From the IMG/VR virus record IMGVR_UViG_3300008110_000066, positions 1 through 57,639 of that record: 57,639 nucleotides of DNA; one strand, written 5' to 3'. Positions 2,450-57,048 of the stretch are shown piece by piece. A program made the position numbers and the translations under genes. The first letter of the stretch is position 1. Each line of letters opens with the position of its first letter. Under the pieces are notes generated by a model. The model made no database searches, was not told the DNA's origin, and saw nothing but the letters and a program-made list of their open reading frames with translations. The DNA is from a virus.

Positions 2450-4879
2450 ATGTCATTAAAAATTATTAAACGAGGTGGTGAGGTTGTCTCATTTAATCCA
2501 CAAAAGATTTACAACAGAGTAAAACGATCTGCGAAAGGTTTGAATGTAAATTCAGACGAGATCTTTATTAAAGTTATTACTTCAGTACCAACTGAAGGTG
2601 AAGTAACCACAAAAGAACTTGACAAGTTGGTTTACGAGATTGCAGCATCTTATACAGGTAGTCATCATGACTACTCAAGATTAGCGTCATCGGTTGCAAT
2701 TTCTTCATATCATAAAGAAACAAATGATAGTTTTTCACAAACTATGATGCAACTTTATGAGGATGGGATTATAAATAAGAAACTTATTGAGACCATTAAA
2801 GAATACGGAGAAGATACAATTGATGCGGTAATCAATCACGAAAATGATTATAACTTTGATTACTTTGCTTGGAGATCATTACAAGAAATGTATCTACTGA
2901 AACGACCAAATGGAAAAGTAATTGAAAGACCACAACATATGTACATGAGAGTTGCATTATGGGTCACTTCAAATATTACAGACGCATTTGAATATTATAG
3001 ATCATTATCTGAACAACTAATTTCAAAGGCAACACCAATTATGATTAACTCAGGTACTAAAGTTCCTCAATTAGCATCTTGCGTACTTCATTATAATGAC
3101 GCTGATTCAAGAAAAGGTTTGTTAGATACATTGACAGATATTTCTACGTTTTCATCCGATGCTGCAGGTATTGGATTATCTATGTCTAACATTCGTAGTA
3201 AAGAAAGTAGAATTTCTAGTTCAGGCGGATATGCTGGAGGTTTGTTAAAATATTTAAAAATTGTAAATGAATCACTCAGATTCTTCAATCAGCAAGGTCG
3301 TCGACCAGGATCGGCAGCAATATATCTTGAACCATGGCACAAAGATATATTTGATTTGTTAGACATTAAAAAGAACACAGGAGCCGAAGAGTTAAGAGCC
3401 CGTGATTTATTTACAGCTCTGTGGATTCCTGACAACTTTATGAGGGCGGTAAAAGAAAACAATAATTGGTATCTATTCTGTCCTAACGACATAAAGAAAG
3501 CAGGTTTGAAACCATTACAAGAATGTTATGGAGATGAATATGAAGAGGTTTATGACAAAGCGGTAACTATGGGACTTGGTAAAAAAGTTAAGGCTCAAGA
3601 TATTTGGAGTAAAATTGTAGAGTCCCAAGTAGAAACAGGAGTTCCATACCTTTGTTCTAAGGACAATGCAAATCGTAAAACTAATCATCAGAACATTGGT
3701 GTCATTAAACAATCCAATCTTTGTAATGAGATTTATCAATATACTGACGAAGAAACAACCGCAATTTGTACACTTTCATCTATGGTATTGAAAAACTTTA
3801 TTAAATCAGGAAAATTTGATTTTGAACTTTTATTTAGTGAAGTTCGTAAAGTTGTCCGATCTTTGAATAAAGTAGTAGATATAAATAACTATTCAACTGA
3901 TAAAGGTAAAAAAGGTGGTTTAGAGCAAAGAGCAATTGCTATTGGTACTCAAGGGTTGGCGGACGTGTTCTATTTAATGGATTATATTTTTACTTCCGAA
4001 GAGGCGAAAAAATTAAACAGGGATATCTTTGAAACTATCTACTACGCTGCGATTTACGAAAGTAATCAATTGTGTATGAACGGTAAATACAAACCATACA
4101 ATTTTTTTGAAGGGTCACCAATGTCCAAAGGAACATTTCAATTCGATATGTGGAATTTGGATGAAACAAAACTTTCAGGAATGTGGGATTGGAACAAATT
4201 GAAAGAAAATGTTAGATCTTACGGTGTTTGTAATTCATTGTTTACAGCTCAAATGCCAGTCGCTTCATCAGCAAAAATTACTGGTTCATACGAAATGACA
4301 GAACCTGCACATTCGGCAATTTTTAATAGACGAGTTGTTGGAGGTGAAATTATGATTGTTAACAAATATCTAATCAATGATTTTGAAAAAATTGGAATTT
4401 GGTCTGAAGATTTAAAAAATGAAATTATTTTTAATGAAGGATCAATTCAAAATATTAACTTTAACAATTATTTAGATTCCGAAGATAAAAATTACAATAA
4501 GAAAGTTAAACGAATTGAACACTTAATTCCTAAATATAAAACAATTTGGGAAATTTCACAAAAACAACTTATTGATATGGCGGCAGATAGAGCGCCATTT
4601 ATTGACCAATCACAATCGATGAATATCTATATGTCTAACCCTACATTATCAAAAATTACTTCGTCACATTTTCACTCTTGGGAGAGTGGATTGAAAACAC
4701 TTTGTTATTATGTCAGAACTAAGGCAATTTCAACAGGAGCAAAACACTTGGCGATGGATATATCCAAAAGAGAAAAACCAAAGTCAACACCCGAACCTCC
4801 TAAAGTGGATTATTCACATTTAAATTTACCAGCAAGACCCGATAATTCTGACTTTGAATGTTTTGGTTGTTCATCTTAA
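2450..4879 (+). CDS. nrdA: class Ia ribonucleotide reductase, large (R1) subunit
   Basis: This catalytic subunit reduces ribonucleoside diphosphates using the radical delivered by NrdB. Residues 1-90 form an ATP-cone-like allosteric domain. The active-site motif NLCNEI matches the N437/C439/E441 triad of E. coli R1. The paired redox cysteines are visible in QLASCVL and ICTLSS. The C-terminus ends CFGCSS, a CxxC redox tail that is re-reduced by thioredoxin or glutaredoxin. It has full family length (809 residues). It is the last gene of the operon and is followed by a strong terminator. No anaerobic (class III) enzyme is seen nearby. Confidence 0.95.
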   Translation: MSLKIIKRGGEVVSFNPQKIYNRVKRSAKGLNVNSDEIFIKVITSVPTEGEVTTKELDKLVYEIAASYTGSHHDYSRLASSVAISSYHKETNDSFSQTMMQLYEDGIINKKLIETIKEYGEDTIDAVINHENDYNFDYFAWRSLQEMYLLKRPNGKVIERPQHMYMRVALWVTSNITDAFEYYRSLSEQLISKATPIMINSGTKVPQLASCVLHYNDADSRKGLLDTLTDISTFSSDAAGIGLSMSNIRSKESRISSSGGYAGGLLKYLKIVNESLRFFNQQGRRPGSAAIYLEPWHKDIFDLLDIKKNTGAEELRARDLFTALWIPDNFMRAVKENNNWYLFCPNDIKKAGLKPLQECYGDEYEEVYDKAVTMGLGKKVKAQDIWSKIVESQVETGVPYLCSKDNANRKTNHQNIGVIKQSNLCNEIYQYTDEETTAICTLSSMVLKNFIKSGKFDFELLFSEVRKVVRSLNKVVDINNYSTDKGKKGGLEQRAIAIGTQGLADVFYLMDYIFTSEEAKKLNRDIFETIYYAAIYESNQLCMNGKYKPYNFFEGSPMSKGTFQFDMWNLDETKLSGMWDWNKLKENVRSYGVCNSLFTAQMPVASSAKITGSYEMTEPAHSAIFNRRVVGGEIMIVNKYLINDFEKIGIWSEDLKNEIIFNEGSIQNINFNNYLDSEDKNYNKKVKRIEHLIPKYKTIWEISQKQLIDMAADRAPFIDQSQSMNIYMSNPTLSKITSSHFHSWESGLKTLCYYVRTKAISTGAKHLAMDISKREKPKSTPEPPKVDYSHLNLPARPDNSDFECFGCSS

Positions 4880-4967: not shown

Positions 4968-5426
4968 ATGGCAAATGGTATAACTTATGGAATTTCGTTC
5001 CCTTTTGTGGATTCGTTTACAGGTAGATATTTGGACGTTACTAATTCTACTGAAGGTGAAATTAGATCTAATCTTGTTCATTTATTATTAACTAGAAAAG
5101 GTAGTAGGTATTTTTTGCCTGATTTTGGTACAAGATTATATGAATTTATCTTCGAACCGTTGGACGGTCCAACGTTTTCCGATATTGAGTCAGAAATAAG
5201 AGACACAGTAAGGACTTACATGCCTAATTTACAGGTAACTAATATAACCGTTGAACCAGGTTCTGCCGGTTTAGAGGACAAAGGTTATACTGTAAATCAA
5301 GATGGTGAAAGAGAATTTAGAGTTACTAACATTTCTAATTTAGAACATACGGCAAGAATCAAAATTGATTACAGAATAACAGATTCGGCTTTTGAATCAC
5401 AAGATTTTGTGATATTAAATATTTAA
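4968..5426 (+). CDS. baseplate wedge protein, T4 gp25-like
   Basis: This protein belongs to the GPW/gp25 family, a small lysozyme-fold-like component of contractile-tail baseplates that sits close to the tail tube and sheath. The family pattern is visible: SNLVHLLLTRKGSRYFLPDFGTRLYEFIFEP, followed by a conserved region of Asp/Ile-rich helix (SDIESEIRDTVRTYMP) and a β-strand ending. At 152 residues it is slightly longer than T4 gp25 (132). It sits 6 nt upstream of the J/gp6-like gene, the classic gp25-gp6 neighbourhood of contractile injection machines. It is the first gene of the late tail operon. Confidence 0.85.
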   Translation: MANGITYGISFPFVDSFTGRYLDVTNSTEGEIRSNLVHLLLTRKGSRYFLPDFGTRLYEFIFEPLDGPTFSDIESEIRDTVRTYMPNLQVTNITVEPGSAGLEDKGYTVNQDGEREFRVTNISNLEHTARIKIDYRITDSAFESQDFVILNI

Positions 5427-5432
5427 TAATAT

Positions 5433-7274
5433 ATGGCAGAGAAAAAAATATCCTATACGGTTAGGGATTTCCAAGGAGTAAGAACAGAGCTTATAAATTT
5501 TACTAGAACTTACTATCCTGATTTAGTACAAAATTTCAATGACGCTGGTATTTTTTCAGTCATGTTAGATTTGAATGCTGCAGTAACTGATAATTTAAAT
5601 TATCAAATAGACAGAAGTATTCAAGAAACCGTTTTACAGTTTGCACAACAAAAAAATTCCGTTTATAATATTGCAAGAACTTATGGTTTAAAAATACCAG
5701 GTCAAAGACCTTCCGTTGCGTTAGTGGACTTTTCAATCACAGTTCCGGCATTTGGAGATAGAGAAGATATAAGATATTGTGGTGTCTTGAGAAGAGGTTC
5801 ACAAGTAAATGGGGCTGGACAACCTTTTGAAACTGTTTATGATATTGATTTTGCATCACCAATAAACGCTGAAGGATCACCAAATAGAGTAAAAATCCCT
5901 AATTTTGACTCTAGTGGTAAGTTGATCAACTATACAATAGTTAAACGAGAAGTTGTAGTTAACGGGATCACTAAAGTTTTCAAAAGAGTAGTTACCCCAA
6001 ATGATGTAAAACCATATTTTGAATTATTTTTACCTGAAAAAAACATTTTAGGAATTTCAAGTGTGTTATTAAAATCAGGTACACAATATTCCACTATACC
6101 AAATCCACAGGATTTTCTCACATTAGGACCTGAAAGATGGTTTGAAGTTGACGCTTTAGTACAAGATAGGGTATTTGTTGAAGACCCAACTAAAGTATCT
6201 GATCAACCTGGTATTAAAGTAGGTAGATATATTACAACGTCCAACAAATTTATTTCGGAATATACACCTGAAGGATTTTGTAAAATAACATTCGGTGGGG
6301 GTAATATTTCCGCTGAAGAACAATTGAGAGAATTTGCTAGAGATGGTAAAGGATTTGATTTGAGTAGATACACCAATAATTATTCTTTGGGTGCCGCTCT
6401 AACACCAAATACTACTTTGTTCGTTCAATATAGAATTGGTGGAGGACTTGCTAGTAATGTCGGTCTAAACACTATAAATCAAATAGGTACAGTATCATTT
6501 GCGGTTAATGGACCTTCCGAGTCTGTAAACAGAAGTGTTATAAACAGCTTACAGTGTAATAACGTAACTGCCGCAATTGGAGGATCAAATATACCAACGA
6601 CTGAAGATGTTAGAAATTTGGTTTCATTTAATTTTGCAGCACAAAACAGAGCGGTTACGGTAAATGATTACAATTCTTTAATTAGAACAATGCCTTCTCA
6701 GTTTGGAGCTCCTGCAAAAGTTGCAATCACAGAAGAAAATAATAAGATAAGAATAAAAATGTTATCTTATGATACAAGTGGTAGTCTTACTAATGTTGTC
6801 TCTAACACCTTAAAACAAAATGTTGCAAATTATTTATCAAACTATAGAATGATAAATGATTATATTTCAATCGAAGCTGCAGAAACTATAGATCTTTCAG
6901 TAACTGTTGACGTTGTGTTGGATAATAGTCAAAACCAAGGTGCGATTATTTCTAAAACTATACAAATAGTTTCTGAGTTCTTTAACCCACTTGTTAGGGA
7001 GTTAGGTCAAAATGTTAATATATCTGAATTAAGAAGGTTAATACAATCCGAAAATGGAATTGTTAGTCTTTCTGACATTTCGTTCTTTAATCAAGTTGGA
7101 GGTCAGTATTCATCGGCACAAACATCAATGCCATATTCAAACCCATTAACAAGACAAATCCAACCAACTGCGGATACTATCTTTGCAACCCCAACACAAA
7201 TCTATCAAATTAGATATCCAAATAAGGATATAAATGTTAGGGTTCTCAACCTTAAATCGGTTAACTTTTCATAG
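5433..7274 (+). CDS. baseplate wedge protein, gp6/J-like
   Basis: This is a baseplate J / T4 gp6 family protein, which forms the inner ring of the baseplate wedge. The N-terminus has the typical J signature: an Arg-rich opening (RDFQGVRTELINFTRTYYPD), then a long helix after LDLNAAVTDNLNYQIDRS. The centre is β-rich. The stretch around residues 385-410 (AAQNRAVTVNDYNSLIRTMP) resembles the conserved J-family segment that begins 'R.vT..Dy..L', and the C-terminal part resembles the remaining J-family α/β region. At 613 residues it matches T4 gp6 (660). It lies directly after the gp25-like gene. Confidence 0.85.
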   Translation: MAEKKISYTVRDFQGVRTELINFTRTYYPDLVQNFNDAGIFSVMLDLNAAVTDNLNYQIDRSIQETVLQFAQQKNSVYNIARTYGLKIPGQRPSVALVDFSITVPAFGDREDIRYCGVLRRGSQVNGAGQPFETVYDIDFASPINAEGSPNRVKIPNFDSSGKLINYTIVKREVVVNGITKVFKRVVTPNDVKPYFELFLPEKNILGISSVLLKSGTQYSTIPNPQDFLTLGPERWFEVDALVQDRVFVEDPTKVSDQPGIKVGRYITTSNKFISEYTPEGFCKITFGGGNISAEEQLREFARDGKGFDLSRYTNNYSLGAALTPNTTLFVQYRIGGGLASNVGLNTINQIGTVSFAVNGPSESVNRSVINSLQCNNVTAAIGGSNIPTTEDVRNLVSFNFAAQNRAVTVNDYNSLIRTMPSQFGAPAKVAITEENNKIRIKMLSYDTSGSLTNVVSNTLKQNVANYLSNYRMINDYISIEAAETIDLSVTVDVVLDNSQNQGAIISKTIQIVSEFFNPLVRELGQNVNISELRRLIQSENGIVSLSDISFFNQVGGQYSSAQTSMPYSNPLTRQIQPTADTIFATPTQIYQIRYPNKDINVRVLNLKSVNFS

Positions 7275-45436: not shown

Positions 45437-46909
45437 ATGAATACAAAACAATATATTGAATCTAGATTTCAAAAAATACTTATGGAAAACCTTAATGAAA
45501 AGGCTGACGCAATTCTTAATCGTTTAAATTACGATGAAGAAGCACCATTCAATCCTGCTGGAGAAGAATTTGACTATGTCCAAGAAGGTATGAAAGAAAC
45601 TTGTGAACAATGTGGTGGTATGATGATGGAAGGTGAATGTTCCGAATGCGGCTACCAAAGCGAAGGTGAAATTATGGAACTTGGAGGAATGGATGACGGA
45701 CACCCAAGATTTGGAAAAATGAAATTCAAAAGCCCAATGTCTATAGAGGATATTGAAGATCTACTTAGAAATTACGAAAGTGATGACGAAGATGAAGATG
45801 AAATTGATATTGATGACTTAGAATATGGTGATGACGAAGATGAAGAAGAAGAAGAAAATGATTTAGATACAGAGTGGGAAGAAGTTGATGAGAGCGAGTG
45901 TAATGAATGTGGGGGAATGACCGAATCAAAAAAATTATCACAAAAACAAAAATATATTGCTAAACAAGCAAAACCATATAACAAAATAGGGTCTAACGAT
46001 TTTAAAAAATTAAGATCAATGAAGGAAGAAGATAGTTTATATGAGGTTGAGTTTGAAAAAGATATTGATGAATCAGAAACTCAAGAAGGTAACGCTTTTA
46101 CAGGGGCTTTAGCAAACGCTAAGAAAAAAGGAAGAGATTCTTTTGAAGTTGAAGGTAAAAAATATAAAGTTACCGAATCAATAATTTTCACCGAAAATGA
46201 AATTTTATCAATTATTGAAGAAATGGTAAACGAGGAGAAAAAATTTAGTATGGGGGAACCTAAAGGATATAAAGAATATGAAAAGGCTCATAAGGCAGAT
46301 AAAAAAGAAAACGAAGATTATTTGAAAATGGTTGCCAAAAAAATGACGGATTATTTAAAAGGGGCATCAGACAAAGGATCGAAATATGAAATGAAAGAGA
46401 TTAAAAAATTTCCAACTGAAAATGGAGGGTTAGAAAAAGGTAATAGAAAAAAATACACACCATCAGATGCTGTTGATGAATATATTGACGCTTTTTCATA
46501 TCCTGGACAAACGAATTTAGTTTTTGATGAAATCAAACCAAATGATGATAGAATTGAAAAATATCTCAAAGGTCATTCTACCACAGGAAATGCACAAGTT
46601 GATAAAGACGGCAACCCATTAGGAAACGTAATTCCTAGTGACGTAGGTGATAAATTCTTTAAAAACTATCAGGACAATCTTTACGGTCAAGAACAACAAC
46701 AAGCGTCATATAAAAGACAAACACAACCTGTAGACCAAGCTGGAGAACACACAGAAAGTGGATCTTTGAAATCTAAAAAGAGTAAAAAAACAGCACAAAG
46801 TGTTTTAAATAAAGTTGAAGAGTCTCAAAATGAAAAAAAAGTTATCAAATTAACCGAAGAATTTGTGAGAATGCAAAACTTAATGAACTACACCAAAAAA
46901 ACTCAATAA
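45437..46909 (+). CDS. acidic protein with zinc-ribbon pairs and N-terminal LxE site
   Basis: The ATG at 45437 is preferred to the TTG six bases upstream. The 490-residue protein opens MNTKQYIESRFQKILMEN, with an LxE site ending at residue 17. It has a CEQCGG...CSECGYQ zinc-ribbon pair at ~residues 38-55 and another ECNECGG near 155. In between is a very acidic stretch (Asp/Glu over ~40 residues) that could mimic DNA. A later segment (GNAFTGALANAKKKGRDSFEVEGKKYKVTE) is a compact module. It may be an internal head or scaffold-type protein. Confidence 0.6.
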   Translation: MNTKQYIESRFQKILMENLNEKADAILNRLNYDEEAPFNPAGEEFDYVQEGMKETCEQCGGMMMEGECSECGYQSEGEIMELGGMDDGHPRFGKMKFKSPMSIEDIEDLLRNYESDDEDEDEIDIDDLEYGDDEDEEEEENDLDTEWEEVDESECNECGGMTESKKLSQKQKYIAKQAKPYNKIGSNDFKKLRSMKEEDSLYEVEFEKDIDESETQEGNAFTGALANAKKKGRDSFEVEGKKYKVTESIIFTENEILSIIEEMVNEEKKFSMGEPKGYKEYEKAHKADKKENEDYLKMVAKKMTDYLKGASDKGSKYEMKEIKKFPTENGGLEKGNRKKYTPSDAVDEYIDAFSYPGQTNLVFDEIKPNDDRIEKYLKGHSTTGNAQVDKDGNPLGNVIPSDVGDKFFKNYQDNLYGQEQQQASYKRQTQPVDQAGEHTESGSLKSKKSKKTAQSVLNKVEESQNEKKVIKLTEEFVRMQNLMNYTKKTQ

Positions 46910-51023: not shown

Positions 51024-51863
51024 ATGTTAAGTTATATTGGTGGAAAAAGTAAAATTGGTAAATGGATTGTTCCATTCTACGATAAAAATATGGAGGTCTA
51101 TGTAGAAACTTTCGGCGGAATGTTTTGGTGTTTTTTTAATATGGACCTAAAACAGTTCCCAAACCTTAAAAAAGTTGTTTATAATGACTTTAACCCGCTG
51201 AACTACAACCTCTTTAAATGTGTTCAAAACCCAACTGAACTATTGAAGGCGATTAACGCAATTGATTGTCAAAAGTTGGGTGAGGAACCAACTCCACCAA
51301 TCTATAAAGAACAATTTGTAAGGTTTCAGGCTGAAATTTTTAATCAAGGTTTCAGCGTAGAACCTGGTGATTATGAGGTCGCAGCTAAATACGTTTACGT
51401 TTTAACACAAGTTTTTAGTGGGTCAAAACCTGAAACATCCGGATTCATTGATCTTAAAGGTAAGTATAAATCAAAATATCTTACATTCAGAGATAAGTTA
51501 TCAAAACCTGATTGGATTGAACACTTTCTTAAGATTACAGAAGTAGAGAACATGGACTTTGCGGCTGTGATAGAAAAATATGACTCACCAACCACTTATA
51601 TCTATTTGGACCCACCTTATTGGAAAACTGAAAACTATTACTCCAACCACGACTTTGATCGACAAGATCATGAGCGTTTAGCTAATGTTCTACACGAAGT
51701 CCAAGGTAAGTTTTCTCTATCCTATTATGACTTTGAATTACTACATGAATGGTTCCCCGAAGACCAATATACTTGGGTTAAAAAAGAGTTTGCGAAAGCC
51801 GCTTCAGCCAAGAAAGGAGAAAAACAAAATATGGGTGAGGAATTATTGATTATGAATTACTAA
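51024..51863 (+). CDS. DNA adenine methylase (Dam / D12 class)
   Basis: The ATG at 51024 begins MLSYIGGKSKIGKWIVPFY, the N-terminal SAM-binding motif of D12-class N6-adenine methyltransferases. The protein (279 residues) has the catalytic DPPY motif (YLDPPYW, near residue 196). The segment VETFGGMFWCFFNMD and the following Asn-Asp strand (YNDFNPLNYNLF) match the family. It may protect phage DNA from host restriction. No cognate nuclease is adjacent. Confidence 0.85.
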   Translation: MLSYIGGKSKIGKWIVPFYDKNMEVYVETFGGMFWCFFNMDLKQFPNLKKVVYNDFNPLNYNLFKCVQNPTELLKAINAIDCQKLGEEPTPPIYKEQFVRFQAEIFNQGFSVEPGDYEVAAKYVYVLTQVFSGSKPETSGFIDLKGKYKSKYLTFRDKLSKPDWIEHFLKITEVENMDFAAVIEKYDSPTTYIYLDPPYWKTENYYSNHDFDRQDHERLANVLHEVQGKFSLSYYDFELLHEWFPEDQYTWVKKEFAKAASAKKGEKQNMGEELLIMNY

Positions 51864-53305: not shown

Positions 53306-53337
53306 AACCCCCTTCTTCAGGTTGGGGGTTTTTTGTT
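53306..53337 (+). terminator. rho-independent terminator
   Basis: AACCCCC (53306-53312) pairs with GGGGGTT (53324-53330) around an 11-nt loop and runs into TTTTTTG. It ends the LRR gene transcript. Confidence 0.85.
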
Positions 53338-53345
53338 TTACAAAG

Positions 53346-53353
53346 TATTTATC
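53346..53353 (+). promoter_or_regulatory. TATTTATC box before the gene at 53358
   Basis: TATTTATC ends four bases before the ATG at 53358. It is a member of the recurring box. Confidence 0.45.
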
Positions 53354-53357
53354 TTAT

Positions 53358-53732
53358 ATGAAAATCATCATAACAGAAGAACAATATAACTTGATTCAAG
53401 AAGAATATAGAAGGGATCGTTTCGATGCTGAGTATGCTGATGAATACCCAAAATATAAGAAGTTGTTTTTAAAGACCATTTCTAAAGATGTTAAAGGTTG
53501 GGGTGAATGGCCAGGTTCTATTTATTTGATGAACGAATTTGGAGAACCTTTATTTGTATATAGAATACCATCAAAAACCGTATATTACGATTATTCAATA
53601 GATAAAGAGATGGAAGAATACATTCCTTATCATATAGTTTCAAGACACTTGAAAAACGCAGTTTATGATTACTTCAAAGGACTTTTTCCTGATATTGAAA
53701 TAAAAGAGGTAAGTGGGGCTAATATTGTATAG
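53358..53732 (+). CDS. small protein with shared MKIIITE leader (1 of 3)
   Basis: The ATG at 53358 is used, after the TATTTATC box; an upstream in-frame codon (53322) lies in the terminator. The 124-residue protein opens MKIIITEEQYNLIQE, with Glu at residue 15 forming an IxE site. The same 15-residue pattern starts the next two proteins, though the rest is different. The body is an α/β domain with a WPGSIYLMNEFGEPLF strand. It could be a capsid-targeted internal protein. Confidence 0.6.
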   Translation: MKIIITEEQYNLIQEEYRRDRFDAEYADEYPKYKKLFLKTISKDVKGWGEWPGSIYLMNEFGEPLFVYRIPSKTVYYDYSIDKEMEEYIPYHIVSRHLKNAVYDYFKGLFPDIEIKEVSGANIV

Positions 53733-53734
53733 TT

Positions 53735-54283
53735 ATGAAAATAATAATATCTGATAACCAATATAGTCTTATTAAAGAATCTTACCGAAATAAAGGTATT
53801 GATGCGGTTATTAAATATTGGAAAAAAGAGTTAGAAAAAGGTAACAAAATTAGATTTGATAGAGATGAACTTGAATTTTGGGGTATAACTAAATTCACTG
53901 ATAAGTTACATGCTCAAACAGAATTTCAAGAACTTATAGGGGATGAGGTATTTGTTAAAAAATTTATAAATACATTAAAAAACAAGAAATTCTCGACAAA
54001 AGATTTTAGTGAAAGATTAGTTGGTGGTTATGATTTTGAGTGGGTAATCACTAATATGGAATATAGAGATTATGATGTTTTTCTATATGGAAAAACTCTA
54101 CCTGGAGGTTCCGTAACTCTTATGGATGGAAGATATCTAACCTTAGATCAAGCCTTGGAGGATGAAGAAATAGGATGGGAAATCCAAGAAGAAGTTAATG
54201 ATGTTGTTCAGGACTGCATGAATGAAATAATTACACCAGTCACAGGATATGATGTGTCAGTTCCTTTGGTTACTATTTATTAG
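53735..54283 (+). CDS. small protein with shared MKIII leader (2 of 3)
   Basis: This 182-residue protein begins MKIIISDNQYSLIKE, with an IxE site ending at residue 15. The body is acidic and α/β, with no known motif. It lies two bases after the previous gene and two before the next, in an operon of three leader-bearing proteins. Function is unknown. Confidence 0.6.
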   Translation: MKIIISDNQYSLIKESYRNKGIDAVIKYWKKELEKGNKIRFDRDELEFWGITKFTDKLHAQTEFQELIGDEVFVKKFINTLKNKKFSTKDFSERLVGGYDFEWVITNMEYRDYDVFLYGKTLPGGSVTLMDGRYLTLDQALEDEEIGWEIQEEVNDVVQDCMNEIITPVTGYDVSVPLVTIY

Positions 54284-54285
54284 AA

Positions 54286-54873
54286 ATGAAAATAATAATT
54301 ACAGAAAAACAATATAACAAACTGACTGAAGACAAACTTCAGAAACTTTGCTATACAGTATGGAACCAACAAAAAAAGAGAGGTGAAGAACCTTATATTG
54401 ATGATATAATATATGACATTACAGATATTAGAAAAAACTCAAACGAAGACTTTCAAATCATTAGACCCATTTGGTATAGATACAACGGTGGATTTGATAA
54501 CTTATTTGAAAGACTTAAAAATGAAATTGACGAAAAAATATTTGATCTAACAAGTGGTTGGGGTAATCTCAATACAAGAGTAGAAGTTATTGAAGTAAGT
54601 CAATTTGGTAGATTAGGTGAAGATTTTGGAGTAGATATATTTGTAAATGTAGATCCAAATGGAACCATGGATTTCGAAATGTTTGAAGAAGGGACTGATA
54701 ACGAAATTCAAGTTAATGATACAATTGAGGCCGCTTATTTTGAAGCTCAATCCAATTATGAAGGTAGTGATCTTCTTGGTTACTTAAGAGGAGAAGTTTA
54801 TGACCTTTTTTATAAAAAATTAGAAAAATACGGAATACCAATTGATGTGGATGTTGATCTAAAAGAATTTTAA
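54286..54873 (+). CDS. small protein with shared MKIIITE leader (3 of 3)
   Basis: This 195-residue protein begins MKIIITEKQYNKLTE, with an LxE site ending at residue 15. The body is α/β and acidic, with VNVDPNGTMDFEMFEEG. It is the last of the three proteins with this leader. No function can be named from the body. Confidence 0.6.
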   Translation: MKIIITEKQYNKLTEDKLQKLCYTVWNQQKKRGEEPYIDDIIYDITDIRKNSNEDFQIIRPIWYRYNGGFDNLFERLKNEIDEKIFDLTSGWGNLNTRVEVIEVSQFGRLGEDFGVDIFVNVDPNGTMDFEMFEEGTDNEIQVNDTIEAAYFEAQSNYEGSDLLGYLRGEVYDLFYKKLEKYGIPIDVDVDLKEF

Positions 54874-55466: not shown

Positions 55467-55811
55467 ATGAAAAAACAAATACTTAAAGAGCTTAATGATA
55501 TTAAGTATCTTTTTAATTACAATAGAGGTAAAATTATTTCAGAACAGGAACAATTTGACGATGAAGAAGAATTCGTAGATTATGATGATATAGATTATGG
55601 TGATATGGATGATGATATGGATGATGATGAAGAAGAATATTATCCTGAACTTAGAATACCTCATGACATGCCATCATACAAAACTAAATATAGACATAGT
55701 GATGATGATATGGAATTGGACGAAGAAATGGATTTACCTGTAATGTTACCAGGAACAAAAGAGAAACCAGATTGGTTAACCTTTGATGAACTTGGAATTG
55801 ATTTTGAATAA
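55467..55811 (+). CDS. acidic protein with leader and IxE site
   Basis: This 114-residue protein begins with a basic helical leader (MKKQILKELNDIKYLFNYN) ending in ISE at residue 26, then a very acidic run (Asp/Glu over residues 28-60). This layout is like a cleavable leader on a capsid-internal or DNA-mimic protein. It ends one base before the next gene's spacer. Function is unknown. Confidence 0.55.
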   Translation: MKKQILKELNDIKYLFNYNRGKIISEQEQFDDEEEFVDYDDIDYGDMDDDMDDDEEEYYPELRIPHDMPSYKTKYRHSDDDMELDEEMDLPVMLPGTKEKPDWLTFDELGIDFE

Positions 55812-55812
55812 C

Positions 55813-57048
55813 ATGAAAAGATTAAACAGAAGATTATATACAGAAGGTGTCACAAAGTCTCAATTTGTCAGACTCATGGAAGCACCAAATTACGAAGGAC
55901 CTGAAAGAATGGCGGGTGACATCGAGAGAAAAATTACAGGTAAGGAAACTCCTTACCACAATTTTCCCGCAATACCCGATATGGATGAAGATTTTATTGA
56001 TCTAATTTCTTCAAAAAGATTTAAAGACTCTGTTGAAAAAGTTAGAATGGCAATGGGAGACACAAGAGTTATCCAAGGGGGTAACCCACTAATGCAATTG
56101 ATGATGACGGTTGGTCAGGCAATGAGAAGTTTAGTTATGATCCAATCTCAAAACAAAAAACAACTTGAGGATTTAGCGATTGAATTGGTAAAAAGTGAGA
56201 TGGGGATTCCTGAAGGAGCAATGCAATTTAAAGCTGAACTTGTAACACAACCTATGGGAGCCGCCGAAGGTATGAAAAATGAGGGTGAAATGCCAAGTGA
56301 AGAGGAAATAGAAGAGTTTATGGGAGACGTTGAAAACTTCAACTTAGAAAGATCCAAAAGAAGATTTATCAACTCACTAATCCAAGGTGCTGCATTCAAA
56401 GGAGGTCATATGTATAATCTTGTAAGAAACGAGATTAACGAAATCAATCCACAATTGATGAACCTTTACGCAGTTACTCAAGCTTTAATGGAACACGCTT
56501 ATTGGATCTTCCCTGATATGGAAGGAATGGCCGGTAGTGGTGGTGGTCAAATGGGTCAATCTGAATATGATGATGAAACAGATCCACCCACGGTAAAGGC
56601 TAAAGCTGTTACATTCCCATTACTTGTTCATGAATTAGTTAAAGGTGTTTATGAGGTATTTGGAACGCACGGATTACCTGATGACCCAAGACAACGAGAA
56701 ATGGTATTAAACGCTGAAGATTCTCTTCCGGCCGAAATTTGGGATTCCCGTTTAGGACCTATTTTTTGGGAAAAATTTGTGGCAACTTATCCAATGGAAT
56801 TGTTTGAGGATGATATGAAACACATACAACATTATTTGTTTATGAGATTCTCATCTTTAACTGCCGAAGAGTTTATGAGAGTCGCTAAAATGATTCTTAG
56901 TGGGGACCCCAAAGGACAACAGTTTATCCAAAGAATGGTAGATGACATTGTTAGAGAACTAAAAGAACAAGAATATAAAGACGCCATGGGAGACGAAGAC
57001 GACGACGAGGACTATGGGGATGTAGATCTAAGTGATTTGGGACTTTAA
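55813..57048 (+). CDS. unknown protein with N-terminal LxE site
   Basis: The ATG at 55813 is used, one base after the previous stop; a longer reading from 55783 overlaps that gene. The 411-residue protein begins MKRLNRRLYTEGVTKSQFVR, with an LME site ending at residue 23. The body is helical and Met-rich, with a Gly-rich stretch (GMAGSGGGQMG) and an acidic C-terminal tail (DEDDDEDYGDVDLSDLGL). This composition suits a virion or scaffold protein. A terminator overlaps its stop codon. Confidence 0.55.
   Translation: MKRLNRRLYTEGVTKSQFVRLMEAPNYEGPERMAGDIERKITGKETPYHNFPAIPDMDEDFIDLISSKRFKDSVEKVRMAMGDTRVIQGGNPLMQLMMTVGQAMRSLVMIQSQNKKQLEDLAIELVKSEMGIPEGAMQFKAELVTQPMGAAEGMKNEGEMPSEEEIEEFMGDVENFNLERSKRRFINSLIQGAAFKGGHMYNLVRNEINEINPQLMNLYAVTQALMEHAYWIFPDMEGMAGSGGGQMGQSEYDDETDPPTVKAKAVTFPLLVHELVKGVYEVFGTHGLPDDPRQREMVLNAEDSLPAEIWDSRLGPIFWEKFVATYPMELFEDDMKHIQHYLFMRFSSLTAEEFMRVAKMILSGDPKGQQFIQRMVDDIVRELKEQEYKDAMGDEDDDEDYGDVDLSDLGL

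Follow-up and report, generated by a model that had tools for sequence, protein, structure and literature searches.

The three leader genes and their surroundings

The window analysed here, the whole stretch of 57,639 bases, is an entire IMG/VR record and thus a fragment of a genome. Three adjacent orfs on its + strand, with 2 bp between them, encode proteins of 124, 182 and 195 amino acids (53358-53732, 53735-54283 and 54286-54873, respectively). In order, they begin with MKIIITEEQYNLIQE, MKIIISDNQYSLIKE and MKIIITEKQYNKLTE, for which the consensus is MKIII(T/S)(E/D)xQYxx(L/I)xE with a glutamate as residue 15 in all three; the orfs, the starts and E15 were all found again as described in a first-pass annotation that had drawn attention to a common 15-residue leader. 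A relaxed regular expression for this leader matches three of the 61 orf starts in the window and none of 312 internal methionine positions. The leader, a presumed propeptide with a predicted cut after E15, covers 53358-53402 of protein 1, 53735-53779 of protein 2 and 54286-54330 of protein 3, all on the + strand. A TTG at 53322 would lengthen the orf of protein 1; the ATG at 53358 is preferred because a TATTTAT box directly upstream (53346-53352, +), a possible promoter or start signal, ends 5 nt before it and because relatives start there too.

The bodies behind the leaders were originally described as different from each other, which stands for body 1 but apparently not for the other two. 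Profile alignment of body 1 matches neither body 2 nor body 3, while the latter two show a weak alignment to each other (hhalign P = 3e-4, probability 39%) and, in the AlphaFold models of the two (mean pLDDT 81 and 83), have helices and strands that follow each other in the same succession; they are probably divergent paralogs, and hence the window would hold two body types. The body of protein 1, a predicted head cargo, is seen only in related viral contigs, with no match in a Pfam search and only a weak one to PHROG. A relative in contig L063 reads MKKLIKKILLQE↓TFSRDRFD (the arrow marks the junction between leader and body) at the position equivalent to MKIIITEEQYNLIQE↓EYRRDRFD in the window. 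In the model of protein 2 the body is confidently folded, and leader residues 1-16 are of low confidence and predicted to be disordered; a fold search with this body matches one uncultured-phage protein. Protein 3 has an alpha+beta body with no PDB match at E <= 0.001 in a fold search and no relative in the phage collection searched. The families of proteins 3 and 2 also occur as a natural fusion (L097:2149-3258, +), in which the second domain has lost the leader that it would otherwise carry.

Directly upstream of this cluster of leader genes is a D12-class adenine DNA methyltransferase (51024-51863). Between 51904 and 53286 (+) lies the gene for a 460-aa protein with a TATTTAT box, a weak leucine-rich-repeat match and a diverged leader, whose junction is kept among its relatives (MSLRFTNLLRDLIVE↓SSRFQ, MAIRFTDILRDLIIE↓NARFQ and MKITSVLSNLITE↓QSRFQ). 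An acidic protein encoded at 55467-55811 (+), also with a box, carries another type of leader, MKKQILKELNDIKYLFNYNRGKIISE↓Q, and the protein G002_11458 begins with a similar one. The 490-aa product of the boxed gene at 45437-46909 (+) has a conserved N-terminal junction, ILME↓N, where its relatives have IISE↓N, ILNE↓T and VLSE↓E. A 420-aa protein (55786-57048, +), whose relatives are located near the portal gene, belongs to a family with a conserved (L/I)xE↓AP, the junctions being LME↓APNYEGP, LLE↓APIDYEGP, INE↓APIDYDGP and LKE↓APISYEGP. The window further contains baseplate genes of T4 type (gp25 at 4968 and a baseplate-J-like wedge at 5433), as well as replication genes for a DnaB-like helicase, ribonucleotide reductase and primase.

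Spread of the leader and the proteins that carry it

At least 120 viral stretches, with at least 143 orfs, match a degenerate DNA pattern that codes for M-K-I-x-I-(T/S)-(E/D)-x-Q-(Y/F). A stricter leader pattern has no match among the species genomes of bacteria and archaea, 84,980 in all. A related pattern gives 1 to 16 matches per genome in 21 leader genomes, with none for the reversed-pattern control and none in six phage records without the leader, about 2.8 Mb in total, that served as negative controls (the cultured Flavobacterium phage immuto, Microcystis phage Mel-JY01 and four records of huge phages). Taken together, the matches listed in these scans comprise 166 distinct leader proteins, which blastp places in 61 groups of unrelated bodies. 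Four larger genomes that were read whole encode 5 to 16 leader proteins each, and other leader families besides. The leader is thus shared beyond chance and beyond one locus. Its synonymous codon variety is close to that of the bodies, so the constraint on it acts on the protein. A tblastn search of annotated phages with a 20-aa leader consensus, too short a query, returned nothing, and a search confined to the open-access literature yielded no paper on the leader sequence.

In Pfam and PHROG the group representatives match, among others, phage lysozyme, ECF-type sigma-70, cell-wall hydrolase, LysM, DHH, HNH and an internal virion lysozyme motif; some further leader proteins resemble ADP-ribosyltransferases, as judged by eye alone. 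Genes for ECF-type sigma factors with both the leader and a TATTTAT box lie at L081:6783-7346 (-) and L106:9257-9811 (+), and their products are candidate injected sigma factors.

The predicted cut site and the exchange of leaders

The prohead protease of T4, gp21, cuts after L/I-X-E, and the internal proteins of T4 carry targeting propeptides of 10-19 residues (PMC9026906). T4 served as positive control in our analysis, where MKTYQEFIAE↓A was found twice, together with MKTFKEFTSTTTPVSTITE↓A. That the leader ends in a gp21-type (L/I)xE, as the first-pass annotation had it, is true of all three window proteins, and 35 of the 61 groups have the glutamate of the motif at residue 15 or 16. The frequency among 1339 control orfs was 3.7%, and shuffled sequences gave 2.7 groups on average (maximum 9). 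Widening the range to residues 15-30 raises the count to 49 of 61 groups (control 26%), with 12 groups lacking the motif there. An I-x-E is also seen at residue 7 or 8 in all 61 representatives, partly by construction of the search; the predicted cut position is therefore not unique, residue 7 being an alternative site. E7 (in I-T-E) as the sole cut site is ruled out by protein 2, which has D7, and by its G009 homolog, which has N7, both of which keep E15.

Homologs of the bodies that lack this leader have (L/I/V/M)xE at the equivalent junction in 26 of 43 cases, in 11 of 16 body groups, the 26 being approximate, as a few of these are altered forms of this very leader or other possible sites within the body. 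The DHH protein of various relatives begins with MKIIITESQYKQLIKE↓SGIRDI, MNMRKNLILE↓SGIRDI, MKKLIIE↓SGIREI or MKNLLKE↓TGLRDI, and in huge phages with MISKYNQFINE↓EVGLRNI (LR745206) or MLRKYGQFINE↓EVGFKNL (LR756502). Such swapping of leaders at a conserved (L/I)xE is the strongest evidence in these sequences for reading the leader as a propeptide.

Three more shared leaders were seen in G025, G030 and G002 (L175-L221): MKK(I/V)IRLTESDLTRIVKRVIKE (15 orfs, 11 with a TATTTAT box), M..FLITEEEKxRIL (9 orfs, 7 with a box) and MK..LIKKILKEE (21 orfs, 8 with a box). The LTESDL, ITEEEK and LIKKILKEE families, whose regular expressions were defined after the data had been seen, mostly reach an (L/I)xE too, and the first two are clearly associated with the box. 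The 635-kb phage LR745206 has a leader like that of T4 IPIII, KYxxFI(K/N)E, on many different proteins (L228-L247); the first 400 kb of its genome hold 19 regular-expression matches of this type, not all of them convincing, and its S77 protease match is weak and under the family cut-off.

The prohead protease, the capsid protein and the probable host

A gp21-like protease, which the first-pass annotation had suggested looking for, is present in relatives but not in the fragment itself: neither a protease gene nor a capsid gene lies within the 57.6-kb window, while the related genomes G002, G025 and G030, which have homologs of 42 to 47 of the 58 window proteins, each encode an S77 (gp21-type) protease. 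Among the leader contigs, 13 of 50 have this protease. A T4-type portal is found in 14 of 45, and 13 of those 14 have the S77 protease; in the fourteenth, G006, the portal is at the very end of the contig. The protease is thus present in every leader contig whose sequence extends into an intact head module of T4 type (13 of 13), and no HK97-type S78 protease was found in 45 leader contigs. In the 12 homologs of gp23 that were compared, (L/I/V)xE↓(A/S/T) is retained at the position of the T4 gp23 cut (for example LINE↓A, LLTE↓A and LLSE↓S in relatives), with V in two of the 12.

The viruses carrying the leader are similar to the bS21 phages of freshwater Bacteroidetes in genome size (293-331 kb), GC content (31-34%) and the cluster of terminase, portal, protease and capsid genes; the portions of that report drawn on here mention no shared leader or head-targeting signal, unlike what we see (PMC9723584). 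In L126 an S21-like orf is found beside the protease: a small one at 2665-2868 (+), recognized by eye, on the strand opposite the adjoining S77 protease, which may be compared with the published bS21 phages. The phage of the window is T4-like, probably with a host among the Bacteroidota, the host being suggested by its likeness to those bS21 phages.

The TATTTAT box

The TATTTAT sequence is strongly overrepresented at distances of 10-14 and 20-24 nt ahead of start codons in the window and in G002, G007, G009, G025 and G030; in one bin of G025 it was observed 40 times, against 1 expected. It may serve these phages as a late promoter or as a start signal, the two preferred distances also allowing a role in translation. 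The box lies upstream of 34 of 56 leader genes and of 286 of 1455 further genes (Fisher p = 6e-11), so that about 20% of the non-leader genes have it as well. It precedes the S77 protease in all four head modules read and the scaffold gene in three of the four, and in the window it stands before several tail or baseplate genes, most of the replication genes being without it. Within the trio, gene 2 has no box before it, and the box of gene 3 falls within the terminal part of gene 2, without conservation in G009; the trio may thus be one operon.

Comparison with known systems and the probable role of the leader

In T4 the proteins IPI, IPII, IPIII and Alt, all cut by gp21, have a short N-terminal leader (7-19 residues) that ends in (L/I)xE and precedes otherwise different bodies, much as here (PMC9026906, PMC7411985). 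The relatives of the window phage also share with T4 the gp21-type S77 protease and a gp23 with an (L/I)xE-type site. Leader length varies in T4, with Alt starting MMELITE and IPI starting MKTFKEFTSTTTPVSTITE↓A, as it does in our viruses. The leader that IPII and IPIII share, MKTYQEFIAE, a likeness to which is not essential to the function, differs from MKIIITExQYxxLxE and shows no resemblance to it; it is the homologous DHH protein of LR745206 that has a T4-like leader. The T4 late box is TATAAATA rather than TATTTAT, and packaging of the cargo is in our case a prediction. Head proteolysis is extensive in phiKZ and SPN3US, both giant phages, where N-terminal propeptides are removed from many of the head and ejection proteins by a cut after the glutamate of a short motif, as we propose here (PMC9026906, PMC7411985, PMC10052503), though the motif of phiKZ is S/A-X-E in place of the (L/I)xE seen here and in T4, and the abundant propeptides of SPN3US are long (124-130 residues) in contrast to this short leader.

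Quite likely, in our view, the leader serves as a capsid-targeting propeptide that the prohead protease cuts off, in a variant of the T4 internal-protein system. The earlier proposal of a T4-like leader cut after (L/I)xE gains support from the 61 body groups, the enrichment of the site, the leader swaps, the protease and gp23 site of the relatives, and the shared box. New with respect to T4 are the sequence of the leader, the existence of several leader families side by side and a cargo that was not expected (ECF sigma factors, lysozymes and a DHH protein). The leader proteins would be made late, alongside the virion proteins, and the MKIIITExQY part would bind the core of the forming prohead, so that closure of the shell would enclose them in the head. 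A gp21-type S77 protease, presumed for the window phage itself, would then cut after the (L/I)xE at about residue 15 or 16 and free the body within the head, to enter the next host cell together with the DNA. There the cargo may act early, as a sigma factor, a wall hydrolase, an ADP-ribosyltransferase-like protein or possible anti-defence proteins.

Alternative explanations

An alternative to which we give a rather small chance is a leader that targets the head, or docks to the virion in some other way, and usually stays on the protein, the (L/I)xE being merely the end of a docking helix. The MKIIITExQY part is indeed more conserved than the E15/E16 site, and the 12 groups without (L/I)xE at residues 15-30 would fit. 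In T4 IPIII, moreover, targeting and processing use different residues, an Asp at position 10 blocking processing but not targeting (PMC9026906). A kept peptide does not, however, readily account for the replacement of the whole leader by an unrelated one with the junction (L/I)xE retained, nor for the same site in the gp23 homologs at the end of the T4 propeptide.

Less likely still is a docking or localization peptide that works inside the cell and has nothing to do with the head, for example one that attaches to a complex of the host or the phage at a late stage of infection. The function of the leader is a prediction, and sigma factors, lysozymes and the DHH protein could also act in the infected cell; against this stand the association of the leader with a T4-type protease, the occurrence of a T4-like leader on the homologous DHH protein, the box that leader genes have in common with head-assembly and tail genes, and the conserved (L/I)xE↓AP on a protein of the head locus.

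Simple paralogy, with an ancestral N-terminus that signals nothing, agrees with the apparent relationship of bodies 2 and 3 but is very improbable and was rejected, as the same leader is found on 61 body groups, including lysozyme, sigma-70, DHH and HNH proteins, and leaders are swapped on one and the same body. The least probable explanation, a DNA or RNA signal at the start of the gene (a translation enhancer or recombination hot spot) from which the shared peptide merely follows, draws on the TATTTAT directly upstream of many leader genes, and start-site signals may be important where the host makes little use of Shine-Dalgarno sequences, but it was rejected because codon choice at the conserved leader residues is about as varied as in the bodies, placing the constraint on the residues.

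Implications

The propeptide reading has a precedent among the T-even phages, where many internal-protein genes were found by way of their signal sequence and where Ip1, Ip2 and Ip3 are injected inhibitors of restriction enzymes (PMC12373910). Our sequence comparisons indicate that dozens of proteins, different from one another apart from this removable tag, are directed by it into the head of the phage, from which they are probably then injected into the bacterium. A broader possibility, for which we see about even chances, is that interchangeable short leaders ending in (L/I)xE (ITExQY, LTESDL, ITEEEK and LIKKILKEE, plus KYxxFIxE in a huge phage) form a code by which T4-related uncultivated jumbo phages load dozens of effectors; these would include injected ECF-type sigma factors that redirect the host RNA polymerase at once, wall hydrolases, and DHH phosphoesterase-like and ADP-ribosyltransferase-like proteins.

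If the propeptide reading is right, the leader would be a candidate for a tag with which to load proteins into heads, and the sequence alone would predict which proteins an uncultivated jumbo phage brings into its host. That, in turn, would provide a list of candidate injected effectors, with sigma factors, lysozymes and many unknown families among them, for phages whose virions are beyond present study.
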